Notes under the pieces: model-generated
What the model was told of the DNA's origin: nothing
The model's database searches: none
Seen by the model: the letters and a program-made list of their open reading frames with translations, nothing else
Assembly: GCF_023921125.1 (NCBI RefSeq)
Contig: NZ_CP099466.1
Span: 1,426,001 to 1,490,000, forward strand
Source of the DNA: Arthrobacter caoxuetaonis
GTDB lineage: Bacteria; Actinomycetota; Actinomycetes; Actinomycetales; Micrococcaceae
Direction: 5' to 3'
Length of the DNA: 64,000 nt
Position numbers and translations under genes: made by a program
Shown: in pieces, positions 7,651 through 16,749 of the stretch
How positions within the stretch are numbered: the first letter of the stretch is position 1
Layout of the letters: each line of letters begins with the position of its first letter

Positions 7651-9189
7651 ATGAACGCCAACCCGACCTTTGACGGCGAAGAGTACATCCCGGCAGGCGA
7701 GGACCAGATCGACGAGCGCCTTGCCGCCCTTGACGACGACGAAGCCAACCTGCGCGCCGAAACCCTGCGCGCCGGGCTGTCCGACTATGAGCTCGACGAG
7801 GAAGACGCCGCACTGCTCTCAGGCGGCTTCGATGAGTTCGACGAAGATGCTCCGGTCCTGCTTGACCCGGTCGTTGCGATCGTCGGCCGTCCCAACGTCG
7901 GCAAGTCCACCCTGGTGAACCGTATCCTTGGCCGCCGCGAAGCCGTGGTGGAAGACACCCCCGGCGTCACCCGTGACCGCGTGTCCTACCCGGCGACCTG
8001 GAACGGCGTGAACTTCACACTCGTGGACACCGGCGGCTGGGAGCACGATGCCCGCGGTATCCACGCCCGCGTCGCTGATCAGGCAGAAATCGCCGTCGAC
8101 GTCGCTGACGCCGTGATGCTGGTGGTCGACGCGACCGTGGGCATCACCGCCACGGACGAAGCCGTGGTGCGCATGCTGCGCAGCAAGGGCAAGCCGGTCA
8201 TCGTCGTTGCCAACAAGGTCGATGACATCCAGAACGAAGCCGACGCTTCGGTGCTGTGGGGCCTGGGCTTCGGTGAGCCGTACCCCGTCTCGGCGCTGCA
8301 CGGCCGCGGCACCGGTGACATGCTCGACGCCGTCCTTGAGGTGCTGCCCGAGTACTCCGCCTACGGTGGACTGGAGTCCAGCGGCGGACCGCGCCGCATC
8401 GCGCTGATCGGCCGTCCGAACGTGGGCAAGTCCTCGCTGCTGAACAAGCTGGTTGGCAGCGAGCGTGTGGTCGTTGACGACACCGCCGGCACCACCCGTG
8501 ACCCCGTTGACGAACTGATCGAACTCGGCGGGCGCACTTGGCGATTCGTTGACACCGCAGGCATCCGCCGCCGCCAGCACATGGCCCAGGGCGCCGACTT
8601 TTACGCGTCCCTGCGCACGCAGGCCGCGCTCGAGAAGGCCGAGGTCGCCGTCGTGCTTCTGGCCGTCGACGAGGTCCTCTCCGAGCAGGATGTGCGCATC
8701 CTGCAGCTGGCGATCGACTCGGGCCGTGCACTGGTCCTGGCGTTCAACAAGTGGGACCTGCTCGACGACGAACGCCGCCGCTACCTGCAGATCGAAATCG
8801 AGCGGGACCTGGCCCACGTTGAGTGGGCGCCGAGCGTCAACATCTCCGCCAAGACCGGCTGGCACAAGGACAAGCTGGTTCCGGCCCTTGACCTGGCCCT
8901 GGAGAACTGGGACAAGCGCATTCCCACCGGCAAGCTCAATGCGTTCCTGGGCGAGCTCGTGGCCGCGCACCCGCACCCGGTGCGCGGCGGCAAGCAGCCC
9001 CGCATCCTCTTCGGCACGCAGGCCTCCTCGCGTCCGCCGAAGTTCGTCCTCTTCACCACCGGGTTCCTGGATCCGGGCTACCGCCGCTTCATCACCCGGC
9101 GCCTGCGTGAGACCTTCGGTTTCGAAGGCACGCCGATCGAGGTCTCCATGCGCGTCCGCGAGAAGCGCGGCAAGACCAGCAAACGCTAG
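7651..9189 (+). CDS. der: Ribosome assembly GTPase Der (EngA)
   Basis: A 512-residue double-GTPase needed for 50S subunit assembly. The first G domain has [19 protein letters not shown] near residue 78. The second has [19 protein letters not shown] near 254. NKVD and NKWD motifs give guanine specificity, and a KH-like RNA-binding domain ends the protein near 425-505. A strongly acidic extension of about 65 residues precedes G1; actinobacterial Der proteins often carry one. The ATG follows a purine-rich GGAAAGAAAG. A G+C-rich hairpin follows the stop. Confidence 0.95.
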
Positions 9190-9205
9190 CTCTTCCAGCA
9201 CGGCG

Positions 9206-9241
9206 GGCGGCCCCGGGGCCACTGTGAACCCCGGGGCCGCC
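9206..9241 (+). terminator. Hairpin after der
   Basis: A perfect 13-bp G+C stem (9206-9218 with 9229-9241) closes a 10-base loop 17 bases after the der stop. No T-run follows, as is common for actinobacterial terminators. Confidence 0.55.
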
Positions 9242-9326
9242 GCCGATGCGGGAAAAACGCTGGAGATGCTGTAGAGTATTTGAGTTGGTTCGGCCGGAAA
9301 CAAACCGGCTCAACGGATCAGCGGAA

Positions 9327-9400
<74 letters not shown>

Positions 9401-9405
9401 CAGAC

Positions 9406-9443
9406 AAAGCTCCGGCGGACAGTATGTCCGCCGGAGCTTTTTT
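9406..9443 (+). terminator. Terminator after tRNA-Pro
   Basis: A perfect 16-bp stem (9406-9421 with 9425-9440) closes a GTA loop and ends in a run of six T, a textbook intrinsic terminator. Confidence 0.9.
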
Positions 9444-9503
9444 GCGTCTGATGGATGCGCAGGGGCTGTTGGCGGGGAGATTAGTGGATACACCGTCCAT
9501 TTA

Positions 9504-9527
9504 GTGAATGATGTACCTATCGTTCAC
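9504..9527. promoter_or_regulatory. Inverted repeat operator candidate before the SDR gene
   Basis: GTGAATGAT (9504-9512) and ATCGTTCAC (9519-9527) form 9-bp arms with one mismatch around GTACCT, ending 21 bases before the ATG at 9549. Size and shape resemble TetR-type operators. No regulator gene adjoins it, so the repressor is encoded elsewhere if the site is real. Confidence 0.5.
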
Positions 9528-9548
9528 GGGCCCCGACAGGAGTACGGC

Positions 9549-10304
9549 ATGGCTGAAGGCAGCACCACTTCGGATTCCCAACCACGGACAGCACTTGTAA
9601 CCGGCGGATCGGGGGGTATAGGCCGAGCCATCGCCCGGCGTCTGTCCGCGGACGGATTCTCCGTGGCCGTTCACTATATGGGAAACGCCGACAAAGCCGC
9701 TGAAGTCGTCCGCGAAATCACCGGCACCGGTGGGCAGGCGATTGCCGTCAGCGGCGACGTCGCCGACGAAGCGGCCATGGTCCGGCTCTTTGACGAGGTG
9801 GAGGCTGCCTTCGGGGGCATCGACGTCGTTATTAACACCGCCGGCGTTATGGTCCTTTCGACGGTCGTGGACCTGGATTTGGATGAGCTGGACCGGATGC
9901 ACCGCACCAACATCCGCGGAAGCTTCGTGGTGTCCCAGCTCGCTGCGCAGCGGCTGCGCAGCGGCGGGGCGCTGGTGAACGTCTCAACCAGCCAGACCCG
10001 GATGCAACACCCAACCTACGCGCCCTACGCCGCCAGCAAAGCCGCCGTTGAGGCGCTCACCCCCGTCCTGGCACGGGAACTCCGCGGCCGTGACATCACC
10101 GTGAATGCGATAGCGCCCGGCCCAACAGCTACTCCGCTGTTTCTGAACGGAAAGGACCAGGAGGCCATCGACCGCCTGGCCCAGCTCGCTCCGCTTGAAC
10201 GGCTCGGCACTCCGGAGGACATCGCGGAAGTTGCGGCCTTCCTTGCCGGGCCCTCCCGCTGGATCAACGGGCAGGTCATCTATCCCAACGGCGGACTCGC
10301 CTGA
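9549..10304 (+). CDS. SDR family oxidoreductase (3-oxoacyl-ACP reductase-like)
   Basis: A 251-residue classical short-chain dehydrogenase. The NAD(P) site TGGSGGIGRAIAR lies near residue 18. NTAGVM is the NxAG variant near 97. The catalytic pair is intact in YAPYAASKAAVEAL (Tyr and Lys near 158-163). The C-terminus WINGQVIYPNGGLA matches the FabG-like group. The start was set at the ATG preceded by ACAGGAG; the frame runs on upstream through the tRNA, which cannot be coding. It is a single gene behind the inverted repeat at 9504. The substrate is unknown. Confidence 0.88.
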   Translation: MAEGSTTSDSQPRTALVTGGSGGIGRAIARRLSADGFSVAVHYMGNADKAAEVVREITGTGGQAIAVSGDVADEAAMVRLFDEVEAAFGGIDVVINTAGVMVLSTVVDLDLDELDRMHRTNIRGSFVVSQLAAQRLRSGGALVNVSTSQTRMQHPTYAPYAASKAAVEALTPVLARELRGRDITVNAIAPGPTATPLFLNGKDQEAIDRLAQLAPLERLGTPEDIAEVAAFLAGPSRWINGQVIYPNGGLA

Positions 10305-10315
10305 GCTGTGCCGGG

Positions 10316-10346
10316 TTGACCCTGTTCGGGGAACAGGGTGTTGGCT
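10316..10346 (+). promoter_or_regulatory. MerR-type promoter/operator, copy 1
   Basis: TTGACC (10316-10321) is followed by a 19-base spacer and TTGGCT as a weak -10. The spacer region holds the perfect dyad ACCCTGTTC/GAACAGGGT (10319-10327, 10331-10339). The long spacer with an internal dyad is the mark of MerR-activated promoters. Two near-identical copies lie at 14651-14729 beside a merR-family gene at 13178. As a hairpin it might instead terminate the SDR gene, but there is no T-run. Confidence 0.55.
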
Positions 10347-10372
10347 TAGCCCGCCGGGCAGAAACTCCTCTC

Positions 10373-10400
10373 GCTGCCGGTTGTCCGCACAAACGGCAGC
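10373..10400. other. Hairpin in the convergent gap, downstream of MerR-type promoter copy 1
   Basis: A 12-base arm pair (10373-10384 with 10389-10400, one mismatch) closes a CCGC loop. It lies between two convergent genes and about 20 bases past the expected start of transcription from the promoter at 10316. It may be a terminator for either gene or part of a small RNA. The only ATG frame here (37 codons from about 10412) has no ribosome binding site. Confidence 0.4.
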
Positions 10401-10536
10401 CGGGCCAGCTTCGATGTGGACGTCCGGCATCCGCCACCACACCGCTGCGCTGCCGATAGGACACCCACTCATAAACCCCAGCCAGCCACTGCCCGTGAAG
10501 CAGTGCACTAACACTAGCTTCCTCTAAGCGCCGGGG

Positions 10537-11667
10537 TCAGGCGGGCAGCAGGCTTGAGGTCAGGGTCCGGACAGCCTCCCTCCCGGCACGGTTCGCGCCA
10601 ACTGTCGACTGCGAGGGCCCGAATCCGATCAGGTGAACCCGCGGATCAGCAGCGGCCACCGTGCCATGGACCTCGATCCCGTCGCGTTCGTTGCGCAGCC
10701 GGAGCGGGTCAAGATGGCTCAGCGAAGCCTTGAACCCGGTGGCCCACAGGATCGCATCGACGCGGGTCAGCGATCCGTCGGCCTCCCGGATACCGTCCGG
10801 CTCGATGGCCGTGAACATCGGCCTCCGCTGCAGCGCTCCGCGCTCCTTCGCCGCCAGGGCATAGGGTGTCCACAGCAGTCCCGTGTAGGAGACCACGCTG
10901 CCGGTGGGGTTGCCGGCCTCCACATCGGCAGCCACCCGGGCTACCACGTCCTTCCCGACGTCCGGAGTGAACGGCTCGTCGCGGAAAACCGGTTCCCGCC
11001 GGGTGTACCAGAAGACCTCGGCCACCCGGGAAATCTCCTCCAGCTGCTGAATGGCGGAAATCCCGCCTCCGACGACGGCGACGCGTTTTCCGGCAAACTC
11101 CTTCAACGAGGCGTAGTCCCGGGTGTGGAGCTGGCGTCCGGCAAAGCTCTCCCGTCCCGGGTAGTCGGGCAGGGTGGGGTTGTCCCAGGTTCCGGTGGCG
11201 TTGATGACCGCCCGCGCGGTCCACGTCCCGGCGTCGGACTCTATGAGCAGTTCACCGTCGGGATCATCATCCGCGGGGGATACGGAAAGCACTTGCACGG
11301 GGCGCAGGATCGGAAGCTGCATGTGTTCCTCGAACGCTGTGAAGTAGGCAGGCACGGCGATGCGGGCCGGTGTGCCGGGGTCAGGAGGGCTCTGCCGGAA
11401 CCCCGGGAGGTCGAAGATGCCGTTGACGGTGGCCATGGTGAGGGATTCCCAGCGGTGCAGCCAGGCTCCGCCGGGAGCCGTTCCGGCGTCGAGCATCACG
11501 AAGCTTCTCTCGGCATCGCCGGCGGCCAGGGCGCTTGTGAAACCGCGCCGGCTCAGGTGGTAGCCGGCTGAAAGTCCTGCCTGGCCGGCACCGATGACAA
11601 CGACGCCGGCCCGGCGGACCGGGTGGTCCCGCGTATCGGTGCCGTGCTGCTGCGGAGCGGTATGCAT
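10537..11667 (-). CDS. FAD/NAD(P)-dependent monooxygenase-like oxidoreductase
   Basis: A 376-residue two-dinucleotide-domain flavoprotein like flavin-containing monooxygenases. The FAD motif GAGQAGLSAGYHL starts near residue 26. A second Rossmann site VVGGGISAIQQLEEI lies near 195-209. ATGFKAS near 310 and the closing segment VHLIGFGPSQSTVGANRAGR are typical of the group that includes the ArsO-type proteins. A good CAGGAGG precedes the ATG at 11667. It is probably transcribed alone; the divergent unit starts beyond marR. The substrate cannot be read from the sequence, and no arsenic genes are nearby. Confidence 0.82.
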   Translation of the reverse strand: MHTAPQQHGTDTRDHPVRRAGVVVIGAGQAGLSAGYHLSRRGFTSALAAGDAERSFVMLDAGTAPGGAWLHRWESLTMATVNGIFDLPGFRQSPPDPGTPARIAVPAYFTAFEEHMQLPILRPVQVLSVSPADDDPDGELLIESDAGTWTARAVINATGTWDNPTLPDYPGRESFAGRQLHTRDYASLKEFAGKRVAVVGGGISAIQQLEEISRVAEVFWYTRREPVFRDEPFTPDVGKDVVARVAADVEAGNPTGSVVSYTGLLWTPYALAAKERGALQRRPMFTAIEPDGIREADGSLTRVDAILWATGFKASLSHLDPLRLRNERDGIEVHGTVAAADPRVHLIGFGPSQSTVGANRAGREAVRTLTSSLLPA

Positions 11668-11758
11668 CCCGGGGCCTCCTGGGCTATGAGTATCACTGCG
11701 TAAATGCCTGGATGCATGGGTTCATTCCCTTCGTAGGGCTGCCGGGCTTCGGCAGCCG

Positions 11759-12232
11759 TCAGCGTGCCGGCATTCCTAAATGGGTGCGCAGTGCCGCAGC
11801 AGCGTCCTCCAAATTGGCGAGCTGCTCCGGCGTAAACGCGTCGATAAAGATCTCTTTGATGGCACCGAGGTGGGGGAGGGTGCTGCCCCGAAAGGCGCGG
11901 GCACCCTCGTCGGTAAGAACGACGAGTGAGCCGCGCGCATCCTCCGGGCTCGGTTCACGGCGCAGCAGGCCTCGTTTCTCCATTCGGCCCAGCTGGCCGG
12001 AGAGCCGGCTGCGCTCCCACTCCAGATGGGCGGCGAGCCGCGACGAACGCATAGCCTTCCCCTCTGCCTCGCTGAGGGCGAGCAAGACCCGGTAATCGCC
12101 GTCGGAAAGCTGGGAGTCCCGGCGCAGTCTGGACTCGATACGGGAGCGGGCGGTCTCGAAGGATTCGATATGCGCCCTCCAGACAGCGAATTCCACGCTT
12201 GTGGGCAGGTGCCGAGGCTTGGCCGCCTTCAT
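11759..12232 (-). CDS. MarR family transcriptional regulator
   Basis: A 157-residue winged-helix regulator. The wing and recognition helix are in LSDGDYRVLLALSEAEGKAM and RSSRLAAHLEWERSRLSGQL (residues about 44-85). The PEDARGSLVVLTDEGARAF stretch is the DxRxxxxxLTxxG mark of MarR proteins. Such dimers bind palindromes and leave DNA when they meet small phenolic ligands or oxidants. AGGAGG stands six bases before the ATG. Its promoter lies inside a 45-bp palindrome that also holds the promoter of the divergent GNAT gene, so it most likely represses both. Confidence 0.9.
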   Translation of the reverse strand: MKAAKPRHLPTSVEFAVWRAHIESFETARSRIESRLRRDSQLSDGDYRVLLALSEAEGKAMRSSRLAAHLEWERSRLSGQLGRMEKRGLLRREPSPEDARGSLVVLTDEGARAFRGSTLPHLGAIKEIFIDAFTPEQLANLEDAAAALRTHLGMPAR

Positions 12233-12246
12233 CAGAACCTCCTAAG

Positions 12247-12291
12247 TAGTTGACATGTGAATCATATCCGCGATGATTCATATGTCAACTA
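12247..12291. promoter_or_regulatory. 45-bp near-perfect palindrome with two divergent promoters
   Basis: TAGTTGACATGTGAATCAT (12247-12265) is the inverse of 12273-12291 but for one base, around a seven-base centre. Toward marR the site reads TTGACA (12288-12283), 16 bases, TATGAT (12266-12261), a near-consensus promoter. Toward the GNAT gene it reads TTGACA (12250-12255), 17 bases, ATGATT. The MarR protein is the obvious ligand. Confidence 0.85.
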
Positions 12292-12377
12292 CATTCCGAA
12301 GAGCTACCGCGTGCTGTGTTCTGGAACCGGTTTTCCCGGCCCGCAAACAGCAGCAGCCCGCAGCAAAGGACAGTCCC

Positions 12378-12758
12378 ATGACGCAGGAACTCACTGACAG
12401 CACCGGAGTATCAGTAACCGTCACCGTCGCACCAGCGGGGCTTTTGGGGGCCTACATTGTGTCCGTGGACGGAGTACATGCGGGAAGAGCCGACTTCATT
12501 GATCCTCCCGGGCCGGAGGATGAACGCATCGTTTTCCATACCGAGGTGGATGAACAGTTCGCAGGACGCGGCCTGGCCGGGCTGCTCCTTGGCGAGGTGC
12601 TCATGGATATCACCCGCCGGAATCTCACCCTTGTGCCCGTGTGCCCGTTGTTCGGGCGCCATTTGAAGAAACACGGCGACGAGTTCCGGGCCGGCGGCGG
12701 GATGTTCCGCCTGCCGAGACCCGCAGACTTCGCCGCAGTCACCAGGGCCGGTTCGTGA
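12378..12758 (+). CDS. GNAT-like N-acetyltransferase (YjdJ type)
   Basis: A 126-residue protein with the small GNAT fold of the YjdJ/GTLP group. PEDERIVFHTEVDEQFAGRG leads into the acetyl-CoA loop FAGRGLAGLLLGEVL (residues about 58-72). It ends with VPVCPLFGRHLKKHGDEF, where family members have the conserved P-x-C-x-F/Y-x2-x-x2-H segment. Start ATG 12378 was chosen for AAAGGA seven bases upstream; the frame also runs on toward the palindrome but lacks a ribosome site there. It is divergent from marR and shares its operator. The acceptor is unknown. Confidence 0.75.
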   Translation: MTQELTDSTGVSVTVTVAPAGLLGAYIVSVDGVHAGRADFIDPPGPEDERIVFHTEVDEQFAGRGLAGLLLGEVLMDITRRNLTLVPVCPLFGRHLKKHGDEFRAGGGMFRLPRPADFAAVTRAGS

Positions 12759-12810
12759 CCTGCGGTTCACGAACGTTCTTGAAGGAGGGCGAGCGGTAAA
12801 GCGTTCAGTC

Positions 12811-13135
12811 GTGCACGACTACCTGACGGAAGTGTGGGGTGCCCTGGCCGGGGACGACTCATATCCGCGAGTTCGTGGAAGGTGACATCGGCGAGAGCAG
12901 GGTGGTACTGGACTTTGCCCTGGTTTCCTCGCTCGACGACGTGGCACGGCGTATGCTCTTGGAACTCGCCAGAAGGCTCACGCTGGAGGGCCGCGGCGTC
13001 TATTTTGTGGATCCGGAATTGACCATTCCGGATCCTGACCGCGGCGACGGCATCCTGGTCCCCGTCATCGCGGATGCTGAACACGTCCTCCGAGGCGGTC
13101 CGGGAGGACAACCGGGTACCGCAGCGGCTCCGTAG
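12811..13135 (+). pseudogene. glsA: Glutaminase A remnant with C-terminal STAS domain (internal deletion)
   Basis: Two pieces of an actinobacterial glutaminase lie side by side in different frames. Frame 1 (from 12796, strongest from GTG 12811) reads VHDYLTEVWGALAGDDS, resembling the extreme N-terminus, where the family continues to YIPELA. Frame 2 (from about 12855) reads IREFVEGDIGESRVVLDFAL and on through a STAS-like domain to the stop at 13135. The whole catalytic domain, about 300 residues, is missing between them. A Shine-Dalgarno AAGGAGGG at 12782 remains, but the expected start codon is GTA at 12796. The family assignment is from memory of glutaminase-STAS fusions. Confidence 0.55.
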
Positions 13136-13177
13136 ACTCTCCTTTGGGGGAATCCCTGGGGCGGAAAGGAGCTTGAG

Positions 13178-13981
13178 ATGCCGTGGAGCACGCGTGAACT
13201 GGCTGACCTGGCGGGTACGACGGTGAACACCGTCCGCCACTACCACCGGCTGGGCCTCCTCGCGGAACCTGACCGCCGCTACAACGGCTACAAGCAGTAC
13301 GAGGTGCGGCATCTGGTGAGCCTGCTGCGTATCCGGCGGCTCGCCGTCCTGGGCATTCCGCTCTCACAAATGCGCGAAGTCAGCTCGGGAGGGGGAGGCA
13401 CCCCCGATGTGCTGCGGGACGTAGACGCCGAGCTCCAGCTGCGCATCGAGTCCCTGCAGGAAGCGCGCGCGCACATTGCCGCGATCCTCCAGCACCAGGC
13501 GCCGGCGGACGTGCCTGCAGGCTTCGAAGCCGTCGCCTCCCGCCTGTCGGAGAATGACCGCTCAATCGTCCACATCATGAGCCAGCTCTACGATGAAGAC
13601 GCGCTGGCGGACATTCGGGAAATGACTGCAGACGAGACCGATGACACCGGTCCGGACATCGACAACCTGCCCCCGGACGCCGATGAGCAGACCCGCGAGG
13701 AACTGGCCCGGAGGGTGGCGGCGATCATTGTGAAGCACCTCGCCGCGTATCCATGGCTGAGTGATCCTGCCGCCCACCTGCCCAGGGGAACCCAAATCAG
13801 CACCCAGGCGTTCGGGGATGCCCTGACCGAGCTCTACAACGAAGCACAGCTGGACGTACTCTTCCGCGCGAACGTGATGGCCGGCGAACTGCTCGCCAGC
13901 GTGCAGGATCACAGCGCTGCGCAGGAGCACATCGAGGTGCAGGATCAGCGCGCCGAAGGGCCTGGTGCCCGTACCAGCTAA
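13178..13981 (+). CDS. MerR family transcriptional regulator
   Basis: A 267-residue regulator. The MerR winged helix starts at once: TRELADLAGTTVNTVRHYHR (residues 4-23), then YNGYKQYEVRHLVSLLRIRR and LGIPLSQMREV. A dimerisation helix follows near 85-115. The 150-residue effector region is acidic, has no CxC metal motif, and does not match a ligand domain I know. AAAGGAG precedes the ATG. Three MerR-type promoters lie within 3 kb on each side, two of them in the next gap, so this is the likely controller. Its stop overlaps the convergent gene's stop. Confidence 0.88.
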   Translation: MPWSTRELADLAGTTVNTVRHYHRLGLLAEPDRRYNGYKQYEVRHLVSLLRIRRLAVLGIPLSQMREVSSGGGGTPDVLRDVDAELQLRIESLQEARAHIAAILQHQAPADVPAGFEAVASRLSENDRSIVHIMSQLYDEDALADIREMTADETDDTGPDIDNLPPDADEQTREELARRVAAIIVKHLAAYPWLSDPAAHLPRGTQISTQAFGDALTELYNEAQLDVLFRANVMAGELLASVQDHSAAQEHIEVQDQRAEGPGARTS

Positions 13982-14598
13982 CCGCCGTCGCTAAGGAGGC
14001 CTCCGTCCAGCAGCCAGTTATAGCGCAGCCTCAGTGCCCGCTCGGTGCTGGCGGCCACGCCCGCCAGGAAGAGCGATGTGTTAGCCCACGCTGGCAGTAA
14101 GAACGGGCTGGCAAACGTGCCGATGCTTTCCGCGACCGGCGGGATCGATGTGACCGACTCCAGAAGCTGCGGCACCCCGAGGACAAGGCTTACGAGGAGC
14201 ACTGTCGCGGACGCCAGCCCAAGGAGCCGGCTCAGAGCAGGCCGCGTTTGGTCCAGATGCGCACGCCGCCCCTCCGCCGAGGACATATCAGGGGTGAGCT
14301 GCTGCACGGTGCCGTCATGGGCTAGGTAGTCGGCCTGCCTCACGCCGTACATGCTCACAGCCACGCGGATGGTCCCTCCCGGGAGGGGAAAGCTGGCCGG
14401 AGGCTTGACGCGGGCCATCTGCAGGCCGTCGCGGTAGAGGTTCACGTACACCTCGTCATCTTCATCGCCTCCGTGCCGCACATCGACGGACCACGTCTCC
14501 GCCTGGTCCATGAGCCGAAGGTGGAACAGCGAACGGGAGAACGCCTGCCACCACCGGAAAGGCTGCAGCGCGGGGGCGCTGCCTGGTTTCACTTGCAT
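13978..14598 (-). CDS. Membrane protein of unknown function, MerR-promoter controlled
   Basis: A 206-residue protein I do not recognise. Residues 1-105 are soluble and beta-rich (WSVDVRHGGDEDDEVYVNLY then VSMYGVRQADYLAHDGTVQQ). Two hydrophobic segments follow, near 130-150 (SATVLLVSLVLGVPQLL) and 160-185, and a short basic end. The ATG at 14598 has GAAAGG upstream. The earlier ATG at 14652 falls inside the -10 region of the MerR-type promoter at 14651-14681 and so cannot be translated from it. It is divergent from the small multidrug export gene and shares its control region, suggesting a joint stress or efflux role. Confidence 0.65.
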   Translation of the reverse strand: MQVKPGSAPALQPFRWWQAFSRSLFHLRLMDQAETWSVDVRHGGDEDDEVYVNLYRDGLQMARVKPPASFPLPGGTIRVAVSMYGVRQADYLAHDGTVQQLTPDMSSAEGRRAHLDQTRPALSRLLGLASATVLLVSLVLGVPQLLESVTSIPPVAESIGTFASPFLLPAWANTSLFLAGVAASTERALRLRYNWLLDGGLLSDGG

Positions 14599-14650
14599 GT
14601 CCGGCCTTTCGAACCGTGTCCGCCCCGGATAGGCGGCCCTGGTTCGAACC

Positions 14651-14681
14651 ATCGGACACTATGTTCCCGGAACAGGGTCAA
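14651..14681 (-). promoter_or_regulatory. MerR-type promoter/operator, copy 2 (minus strand)
   Basis: Read on the minus strand, TTGACC (14681-14676) is followed by 19 bases and TCCGAT (14656-14651). The dyad CCTGTTCC/GGGAACA is slightly degenerate on its downstream side. It points at the membrane protein gene ending at 13978. Confidence 0.6.
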
Positions 14682-14698
14682 CCCCCGGAATATGGGGG

Positions 14699-14729
14699 TT
14701 GACCCTGTTCCGGGAACAGGGTTTCTACT
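14699..14729 (+). promoter_or_regulatory. MerR-type promoter/operator, copy 3
   Basis: TTGACC (14699-14704), a 19-base spacer and TCTACT (14724-14729) enclose the perfect dyad ACCCTGTTCC/GGGAACAGGGT. It lies back to back with copy 2 and drives the small multidrug export gene 52 bases on. Confidence 0.7.
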
Positions 14730-14780
14730 GTCTCCAACCCGAGGGACAGGCCCTCGGCGGGAAGACTAGGAACAGGACAG

Positions 14781-15341
14781 ATGAACCCCATCCAGGAACT
14801 CGTCCACAACTTTCAGGAGCTTCTAGGCCAGGTGCCTGAGTTCCTTCAACCCATTATTCTGATGCTCGCAGCGACCATCCCCTTCCTCGAAAATGAAGCC
14901 GGCGTGGTGATCGGCATCGTCGGCGGACTGAATCCCGTCCTTGCGGCCGTCGCGGCTGCTATCGGCAACTTTGCCAGCGTCCTGCTCGTGGTGATGCTTA
15001 CCTCCGGGGCGCGGACCGCCGTTACCAACCGCGTCGACGCCCGGGAGGCGGAAGCGGTCGCGGCAGGCGGCAGTGCAGCGACACTCGTCGCGGCCCGTCC
15101 TGCCCGACCGGAGTCAAAGGGACGCATCCGCTTCAAGCGGTGGCTTGTCCGCTTCGGTGTTCCCGGAGCAAGCATCCTGGGTCCGCTGGCCATCCCCACC
15201 CAGTTCACCGCGTCGATCCTTGTGGCCGGCGGTACCTCCCGCCGGTGGGTTCTGCTGTGGCAAGGCGTGGCGATTCTTCTCTGGACCACCATCTCAACCA
15301 TTCTCGTCTGGAGTGCGCTTAGGTTCGTCGTCGGGGTCTAG
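14781..15341 (+). CDS. Small multidrug export family membrane protein
   Basis: A 186-residue protein resembling the Sm_multidrug_ex family. Hydrophobic segments cover about residues 22-45 and 50-78. A charged, basic loop (about 80-122) follows, then the family-like RFGVPGASILGPLAIPTQFT near 125-145 and two more helices ending at residue 186. Despite the family name few members have a proven drug substrate. The start has GGAACAGGAC upstream. It is the direct target of MerR-type promoter copy 3, the type of arrangement in which MerR-family drug sensors switch on efflux. Confidence 0.75.
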   Translation: MNPIQELVHNFQELLGQVPEFLQPIILMLAATIPFLENEAGVVIGIVGGLNPVLAAVAAAIGNFASVLLVVMLTSGARTAVTNRVDAREAEAVAAGGSAATLVAARPARPESKGRIRFKRWLVRFGVPGASILGPLAIPTQFTASILVAGGTSRRWVLLWQGVAILLWTTISTILVWSALRFVVGV

Positions 15342-15779
15342 GAGCCCAGGGCCGCCATATCCCCGGCTACCGCGTCCATCCGTTCCTCGAACTGGTGTCC
15401 GCCGGTCTCGTGGCGGCGGATCACTGCATCGGGCAGCAGCCTTTCGTAACTGTCCAGGTGCTCGAAGGGAACCGTGCCGTCGTCGCGGCAGTGGTGCAGG
15501 AATACCGGCAGGCCAGGGGGCAGCGTGAAGTCCGCGGGCAGCGCATACTTGGCCTGCCAGTCCTCCTGCCCCCAGAACGGCGTGGCCAGCAGCACCATCC
15601 CCCGGGGCAGCGGTTCCGGGGCAGAAGCGGCAAGTCGCAGCAGCGCCATGGAAGAACGAAAGGAGTGGCCCACTATGACTGTTTCCTCTCCCATCGGCTC
15701 CAGGGAGTTCCCCGGCGATCGGCTGATCATCTCTCCACCCGCCTGCTCCGTGCAGGAAGAGAACCTCCACGGGTACCAC
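15338..15779 (-). pseudogene. Frameshifted and internally deleted RBBP9-like alpha/beta hydrolase
   Basis: Starting at GTG 15779 the minus strand reads VEVLFLHGAGGWRDDQPIAG, the usual N-terminus of small serine hydrolases of the RBBP9/YdeN type. After GEL the sense moves to another frame at EPMGEETVIVGHSFRSSMAL and continues to the stop at 15338, through RDDGTVPF (acid) and GGHQF (His). The roughly 35 residues normally between strand 1 and the nucleophile elbow are gone, and the elbow Gly after GHSF is Arg. The downstream frame alone gives 157 codons but lacks the oxyanion region. I call it inactive. Confidence 0.7.
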
Positions 15780-15981
15780 CTGCTTCCTGTGAGTCCGGGA
15801 TGTTCTTCCACTGTGCCGCAGCTGCCGGACCGGAAACAGATGGGACAAAATGGCCTGGTTCGGTTCCAGGCAGGGCTGCACGCGCCGATCCAGCTGACGG
15901 CGGGGATGCCGCACTGCTAGCGTTTCCCCACCGGCAGGAGTTCTCCGGCCGGTTTCCTCCCTGCACCAACAGGAGCCCAGG
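15780..15981. other. Gap between the decayed hydrolase and the SDR gene
   Basis: I see no gene here. The pseudogene's Shine-Dalgarno (AGGAAGC on the minus strand) lies just outside its start. The bases before 15982 hold ACAGGAG and CCAGG for the SDR gene. Confidence 0.4.
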
Positions 15982-16749
15982 ATGCCCGCAGAAACGCTGA
16001 ACGTGATCATCCACGGTGCCGGGGGAGCGATTGGCGGGGCCGTGGCACAGGAATTCGCCCGGCAGGGTGCGAAACTCTACCTCGCCGGCCACCGTGAACC
16101 ATCAGTGCATGCCACGGCCGAAAAGGTTCGGGCACTGGGAGCCGAAGTGCACGTCAGCGGCGGTGTGGATGCCTACAGTCCCGTGGAGGTGGATGCCCAC
16201 ACCAACGCGGTGGCGGACCTCGCCGGGCGGATCGATGTTCTGCTGAATGCCGTTGAGATTCCGCGGGTCCAGGGTATCCCGCTGCTGGAGATGGACGCTG
16301 ACGACGTCGTGGCTCCCGCCGCCGGATGGCTGCGCACCCAGTTCCTCACCGCACGGTCCGCGGCCCGGTACATGGTGCCCCAGGGCAGCGGAACCATCCT
16401 GATGCTTTCGGCGTCACCGGCGCGGCTTGCCCTTGCCGGAGTTGGCGGGTTCTCCGCCGCCTGCGCCGCGGTAGAGGGGCTGACGCGAACGCTCGCGGCG
16501 GAAACCGGTGCAGCCGGTGTCCGGACCGTGTGCCTGCGTCCGCACCGGATTCGCGAGACCATCGGGGCCACTCCAGACCTGCCCATGGAGCTGGAGGAGT
16601 TCACCCGCTTCCTTGAATCCCTCACCACCAGCGGCACCCTTCCCACACTCTGCGACGTGGCACGGGCCGCCGTCTTCCTTGCCGCCGGAGGAGCGGCCAG
16701 TATGAACGGCACGGTGCTGAACCTGACCGGCGGCATGAGCCCGGATTAG
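15982..16749 (+). CDS. SDR-fold protein lacking the catalytic Tyr and Lys
   Basis: A 255-residue short-chain dehydrogenase fold. The nucleotide loop is HGAGGAIGGAVAQEF (residues about 11-25) instead of TGxxxGxG. LNAVEIPR replaces NxAG. The serine of LMLSASPARLA is kept. Where YxxxK should stand the protein has GGFSAACAAVEGLTRTLAAE, so Tyr is Phe and Lys is Cys. The C-terminus MNGTVLNLTGGMSPD is normal. It is therefore probably not a classical dehydrogenase, yet the frame is intact and the fold well kept. The ATG follows CCCAGG. It is monocistronic; the role is unknown. Confidence 0.78.
   Translation: MPAETLNVIIHGAGGAIGGAVAQEFARQGAKLYLAGHREPSVHATAEKVRALGAEVHVSGGVDAYSPVEVDAHTNAVADLAGRIDVLLNAVEIPRVQGIPLLEMDADDVVAPAAGWLRTQFLTARSAARYMVPQGSGTILMLSASPARLALAGVGGFSAACAAVEGLTRTLAAETGAAGVRTVCLRPHRIRETIGATPDLPMELEEFTRFLESLTTSGTLPTLCDVARAAVFLAAGGAASMNGTVLNLTGGMSPD

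Follow-up and report, generated by a model that had tools for sequence, protein, structure and literature searches.

The window analysed here is the whole 64-kb stretch of the genome of the soil bacterium Arthrobacter caoxuetaonis (contig NZ_CP099466.1, positions 1,426,001 to 1,490,000), and within it we studied the gene of a MerR-type regulator together with three copies of one MerR-type promoter/operator (copies 1 to 3, Table 1). The best explanation as a whole, in which we place considerable confidence, is that the regulator binds the dyad of this operator and switches on the two genes next to copies 2 and 3, with copy 1 being a leftover. On sequence grounds, the architecture of the site, its near-restriction to genomes with the regulator and its place before the same genes in relatives are established.

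In the mechanism that we propose, a dimer of the regulator would bind the 21 base pair (bp) dyad ACCSTGT-N7-ACASGGT, whose centre lies in the 19-bp spacer that separates a TTGACC -35 box from the -10 box. Without ligand the dimer in the long spacer would keep the promoter inactive, and with ligand it would kink and untwist the spacer, realigning the -35 and -10 boxes for RNA polymerase. As a result two divergent genes, for a small export-like membrane protein and a second membrane protein, would be turned on. From the published MerR mechanism, as given in PMC7722741 and PMC9909328, we infer this hold-shut-then-realign scheme. Binding, and activation rather than repression only, are what we would expect of the regulator.

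Table 1. Features of the window, counted from its first base, with their predicted functions.
Feature	Positions	Strand	Description
Copy 1	10316-10347	+	MerR-type promoter/operator, TTGACC-19-TTGGCT, 39.5 bits (refined profile); no intact gene downstream
Possible relic of a duplicate membrane-protein gene	10359-10430	+	Profile match directly behind copy 1, E 0.06
MerR-type regulator, 267 residues	13178-13981	+	MerR winged helix-turn-helix (HTH) at residues 5-68, effector domain of about 140 residues
Membrane protein, 206 residues	13978-14598	-	Family without a name; start about 52 nucleotides after copy 2
Copy 2	14650-14681	-	MerR-type promoter/operator, TTGACC-19-TCCGAT, 44.3 bits; right half imperfect
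Copy 3	14699-14730	+	MerR-type promoter/operator, TTGACC-19-TCTACT, 49.8 bits; also upstream of the export-like gene in relatives
Small export-like membrane protein, 186 residues	14781-15341	+	Family with weak matches to Sm_multidrug_ex (Pfam: PF06695)

The sequence-only reading of the window had described a compact regulon, in which three promoter units with the same dyad surround a single merR gene. Pattern and profile searches place all three units where that reading had put them, and the positions of the regulator gene and of both membrane-protein genes are also as it gave them. Allowing up to three mismatches, the pattern TTGACCCTGTTCNNNGAACAGGGT has three matches in the 3.93-Mb genome, all inside the window, and the backwards-read pattern used as a control has none in the whole genome. 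Besides copies 1 to 3, nothing in the 64-kb window scores 0 bits or more with the refined profile described below. Copies 1 and 3 alone have a fully perfect dyad; copy 2 has two mismatches in its right half, GAACATAGT, so the common unit stands for all three copies but the intact dyad for two of them. The short dyad alone (2-base centre, three mismatches) is unspecific, with 57 matches per strand vs 28 in the control, and thus the -35 box and the 3-base centre matter. The regulon is compact in the A. caoxuetaonis genome with its three sites, but not in the family as a whole.

The regulator alignment counted 445 relatives, and 80 named actinobacterial merR loci were fetched for site scans. We seeded a 32-bp profile with 13 sites from the window's genome and relatives, including copies 2 and 3 and leaving out copy 1. 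This profile finds 158 sites of at least 12 bits in 76 of the 80 loci and none in their reversed sequences; without the seven loci from seed-giving genomes (L066-L070, L075 and L097), sites are found in 69 of 73 loci. The refined profile gives 164 sites in 77 loci, with the consensus TTGACCCTGTTCCGGGAACACGGTGTCTACTG and with TTGAC, TGT, ACA and the two T of the -10 box as the best-conserved letters. Its symmetry peaks at position 14, which places the dyad centre 8 bp past the final base of the -35 box. The dyad is central in the spacer as had been described, but in the family it extends to 21 bp. The best -10 box lies at a 19-bp spacer in 151 of 152 sites chosen by their first 24 positions alone, a count that is partly circular because the -10 profile was derived from 19-bp sites. 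Published MerR promoters have spacers of 19-20 bp with the dyad inside the spacer, according to PMC9909328 and PMC7722741. By sequence, TTGACC, the 19-bp spacer and the central dyad fit this MerR-type architecture in all three copies, in agreement with the earlier description.

The site is closely linked to the regulator across genomes. We compared 99 genomes, the window's own and 98 relatives, with a threshold of E <= 1e-20 for regulator homologues. The strict 31-base site occurs in 11 of them, all among the 16 with a merR homologue, and in none of the 83 without (one-sided Fisher 3.5e-11, with relatives that are not independent). Conservation of the dyad in genomes lacking merR had been named beforehand as the result that would speak against the regulon, and it is not seen in these 83 genomes; the search across relatives that had been proposed shows a dyad that tracks merR in 11 of 11 site genomes and recurrently precedes both membrane genes. 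Four of the five regulator genomes without a strict site have looser sites in the fetched loci (G014, G017, G022 and G059). Among 393 genomes of the class, the window's own included, the strict site is found in seven and the regulator profile (E <= 1e-40) in 41, with six of the seven among the 41 (p 5.9e-6). The seventh, G295, has no regulator profile match at E <= 1e-40 and an off-type dyad core. On a Streptomyces anulatus plasmid, a regulator is accompanied by hydrolases, a GPP34 gene and two paired variant sites with TGC/GCA cores. Distances were counted in 23 genomes that had been chosen from the 80 merR loci, nearly all carrying sites; here 39 of 74 strict sites have a regulator within 10 kb, where 0.65 would be expected. 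Separately, a related yet distinct dyad, TTGACCTTGTCAC...GTGACA, occurs at G295:C12:380153, G497:C34:67423 and G509:C11:44228 and perhaps belongs to another MerR regulator.

In the 80 loci there are 157 sites of at least 24 bits, of which 152 have a plausible gene within 300 nucleotides (two sites may share a gene) at a median distance of 48 nucleotides. Clustering the first genes behind these 152 sites with BLAST gave 40 export-like genes, 19 MerR-type genes, 14 secreted TAP-like hydrolases, 12 GPP34 genes, two groups of alpha/beta hydrolases (9 and 4), six membrane proteins of the window type, five ABC ATPases, four DUF4260 genes, three Rce1-like proteases and single cases including a beta-lactamase-family protein. 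Except for the window's own genes, the cluster names come from one Pfam-tested member each. These counts supersede an earlier and simpler choice of open reading frames (34 export, 24 mixed with the membrane protein, 18 MerR, 13 and 12 hydrolases). With tblastn the export-like protein is detected in 40 and the membrane protein in 12 of the 80 loci, and homologues of the membrane-protein gene are preceded by a site in Arthrobacter sp. Edens01 (L066) and A. citreus (L067). Since both families recur behind sites in relatives, being first behind 40 and 6 of the 152 sites, they appear to be recurrent targets and not accidents of the window, and copies 2 and 3 very probably drive the two flanking genes, as the sequence-only reading had it.

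The function of both products can be narrowed down only in part. Of 34 aligned members of the export-like family, 15 hit PF06695 with E <= 0.1 (best 1.3e-5), four hit MauE, two VTT and two DoxX; the protein of the window itself matches none of these four. The membrane protein has one strong hydrophobic stretch (residues 120-152), and neither Pfam (13 members, E below 0.01) nor NCBIfam gave a family for it. As a side observation, a stretch resembling a decayed operator (TGTTCTGGAACCGGTTTTC) was noticed by eye at 12317-12335, upstream of an acetyltransferase gene (start 12378), relatives of which have the operator in Isoptericola, Microbacterium and Actinoplanes.

The regulator carries the MerR winged HTH, matching PF00376 with 38.8 bits (cut-off 28.2) and PF13411 with 38.9 bits (cut-off 21.6). 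It is conserved across the 80 fetched loci and is the sole match in its genome to the profile of this actinobacterial MerR subfamily (E <= 1e-40). Its effector region, which had been called unfamiliar from the sequence alone, is indeed so: among 24 members there is no credible Pfam match, with single weak matches such as HEAT_2 in four of the 24 (best E 0.0024), and the best match among PDB sequences is a tail fibre at E 0.094, which is not credible. In NCBIfam the regulator stays below every cut-off and no known effector domain was found. No TipAS Pfam match was detected in the window protein or the 24 effector domains; a fold shared with TipAS would still be compatible with the lack of a Pfam match.

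The absence of a CxC metal motif had also been pointed out before, and it extends to the aligned members of the family. The window protein has no cysteine at all, 54 of 76 aligned sequences are likewise free of cysteine, and neither CxC nor CxxC occurs in any of the 76. The conserved cysteine metal site of the MerR, CueR, CadR-PbrR and ZntR subfamilies is thus missing, and the best score against the NCBIfam equivalogs of metal-sensing subfamilies is 39.5 bits, with a cut-off of 150.85. Because the regulator lacks cysteines we rejected metal or redox sensing. The inducer would instead be a small organic compound, perhaps a membrane-active or ester-type one. A phage origin was rejected as well, as 50,697 phage records contain no homologue at E <= 1e-10. 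Some MerR proteins match the family only in the HTH part of about 110 residues (G491:C54:8883-9215, G495:C8 near 162335 and G539:C39 near 267531). Those of G495 (125 residues) and G539 (111 residues) have an operator each, and by eye their genes adjoin a putative luciferase-type oxidoreductase gene.

Copy 1 had been counted among the promoters of the regulon, a role that does not hold up as there is no intact gene downstream. Most likely it is an operator left behind when its gene was lost. Between the stop codon of the preceding dehydrogenase gene and an anchor shared in the flavin monooxygenase gene (10537-11667, minus strand) the window has 264 bp; in Arthrobacter sp. Edens01, A. citreus and A. 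koreensis the same interval is 51, 52 and 69 bp, respectively, and the operator is missing there. Copy 1 lies inside these roughly 200 extra bases, a strain-specific insert that the three near relatives lack between the same neighbouring genes. Searched against 28 other genomes, the stretch gave nothing below E 0.01 outside the operator part among the matches listed. Against all proteins behind sites it had no hit below E 0.15; the second and fifth of the five best hits in that search were the membrane protein, at the same residues. With the profile of the membrane-protein family, the best match outside the true gene among 1547 six-frame pieces of the window is found directly behind copy 1 on the same strand (E 0.06, profile positions 21-44), which is suggestive only of a gene fragment of this family. 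Of the neighbouring genes, the monooxygenase resembles the ArsO family (289 bits, under the 425-bit cut-off), and a tRNA gene at 9327-9400, the only hit of an Rfam scan of 9000-16000, lies upstream of the dehydrogenase gene.

Two other explanations of copy 1 have to be weighed against a leftover. It could be a working promoter that drives a small or antisense RNA across the 3' end of the monooxygenase gene, given that it scores 39.5 bits, has a T at both fixed -10 positions and points at this convergent gene, whose end is 190 bp away. We consider this unlikely, as the three near relatives have the two genes without this stretch between them, the 28 other genomes have no listed match below E 0.01 beyond the operator part, no Rfam family is found at copy 1, and what follows it may be the relic (E 0.06). 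A terminator hairpin of the dehydrogenase gene that merely resembles the operator is very unlikely: copy 1 does start 12 bp past the end of the gene (10304) and folds into a 9-bp hairpin, but it matches all 21 fixed operator letters including TTGACC, needless for a hairpin, it is followed by no T run, and it too is absent in the three relatives.

For the system as a whole, several observations weigh against regulation of the two genes by the MerR-type protein, or against parts of the wider picture. In the 64-kb window no site precedes the merR gene itself. In the first scan, four of the 80 loci (L106, L109, L123 and L128) had no site of at least 12 bits, and 35 of the 41 class genomes with the regulator profile (E <= 1e-40) have no strict site, so the operator is confined to a part of the wider family and more distant members must use others. 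Of the 74 strict sites in the 23 genomes, 35 have no regulator within 10 kb, and 13 of these 35 are on contigs that lack a regulator. The relic behind copy 1 has an E of 0.06 and its family was picked after a wider search of the stretch, the content of the regulon tells little on the ligand, and the helical phasing reported below was noticed before it was tested, with one out-of-phase pair of 60 bp among the seven later pairs. Finally, there is a clade of Arthrobacter export genes unlinked to merR, of which we examined 14 members, 11 from genomes without the regulator and three from genomes with the regulator elsewhere. All 14 have lost the TTGACC half and have no full site, which speaks for the regulator, but ten of the 11 from regulator-free genomes (L015, L017-L023, L028 and L029) keep the right half (12.4 to 27.3 bits) and the -10 box upstream of the export gene, each right half scoring above all 200 shuffles of its own region; neither half is found in the eleventh (L024) or in the three members with the regulator elsewhere. 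The right half may therefore serve another purpose. The nine strongest cases are close relatives and thus represent few events, perhaps one.

Distant regulators of the same profile without the strict site, and the sites far from any regulator, would fit dyads that belong to another transcription factor, with merR as a passive neighbour. This is very unlikely in view of the co-occurrence over the 99 genomes, the 39 sites within 10 kb (in genomes picked from merR loci), the site before a MerR-type gene in 19 cases and the 19-bp spacer typical of MerR promoters. The regulator could also act by repression alone that is relieved by the ligand, with no activation through DNA distortion; the MerR-type protein HspR carries the name of a repressor in NCBIfam. 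To a plain repressor the fixed 19-bp spacer (151 of 152, partly circular) would be useless, and according to PMC7722741 it is the mark of distortion-activated promoters, which makes repression alone highly improbable. Activation of the two genes by the MerR-type regulator is the reading that we keep.

Pattern searches of further genomes showed that sites are clustered. Around the regulator family there are 23 sites of at least 24 bits in 59 kb in Actinoplanes solisilvae (G482:C49:8000-80000), 21 in 57 kb in Microbacterium sp. SA39 (G539:C39:262000-321999) and 18 in 32 kb in Labedella endophytica (G495:C8:150000-187000). In these islands (stretches L193-L201), 19 of 41, 13 of 45 and 14 of 24 first genes of units, respectively, have a site of their own, and the reversed controls have none. 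The islands were chosen for their clusters, the refinement of the profile drew on loci of the same species, and the genes were called by a simple and rough procedure.

Divergent pairs of sites show preferred distances. After removal of two mirror copies of the same loci, 18 of 25 pairs have dyad centres 44, 52-54, 64-66 or 106-110 bp apart, and the remaining seven distances are 36, 73, 99, 119, 143, 148 and 152 bp. Pairs of up to 125 bp (n = 22) are phased with R = 0.72 at 10.8 bp, a value reached by none of 4000 random sets; for pairs of up to 90 bp (n = 16) p is about 0.001, or 0.0025-0.006 without two related pairs. Copies 2 and 3 are 44 bp apart and their counterparts in Edens01 66 bp, two turns more. 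Seven pairs found later (31, 54, 54, 54, 60, 74 and 85 bp) give a directed p of 0.019 at 10.8 bp, where one of the 54-bp pairs relies on a weak site without TTGACC. Tentatively, the window may hold the minimal form of an undescribed actinobacterial regulatory system, built from a MerR subfamily with a new effector domain and an operator-promoter that acts as a portable one-gene module. In some species the modules would gather into islands, each with about 20 promoters surrounding one regulator or several paralogues, with divergent modules at whole helical turns (two dimers on one face of the DNA) and with modules that come and go, leaving relic operators like copy 1.

The system probably works like a multidrug-type MerR switch. 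Its sequence has the tested features of the MerR family and not those of the metal-sensing or TipA groups. It resembles BmrR, Mta and TipA in the winged HTH, the long C-terminal effector domain, the lack of a cysteine sensor, the 19-bp spacer promoter and a membrane-protein target. Unlike in these regulators, the effector domain has no credible Pfam or solved-sequence match and relatives have many single-gene targets; the match to TipA is confined to residues 3-101. The operator sequences of BmrR and TipA differ from the window operator. SoxR promoters share the 19-bp spacer and the -35 box but have a different dyad, and the window regulator, unlike SoxR, has no cysteine for an iron-sulphur cluster. 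The metal regulators CueR, CadR-PbrR and MerR are similar in the HTH, but the window protein differs in having a far longer effector part and no cysteine. According to PMC5045206, CueR and CadR-PbrR sites likewise have a dyad of 21 bp, whose centre is separated from the -35 box by 7 bp. Among the matches listed there was no paper on this regulator or operator, in a search outside which most subscription papers fall and which does not show novelty; the six papers containing TTGACCCTGTTC are, by title and the start of the abstract, not on bacterial regulation. Plasmid relatives are labelled just 'MerR family' and 'hypothetical'.

For a widespread actinobacterial group, these results give the operator code together with a regulator and its probable targets. 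The inducer becomes findable, because a reporter on copy 3 together with merR could serve as a direct compound screen. Some relatives use the same DNA signal for whole gene islands, and many genes each with a MerR-type promoter of its own would be an unusual build of a large response. The hydrolases, exporters and membrane proteins that share this response may also let the ligand be guessed.

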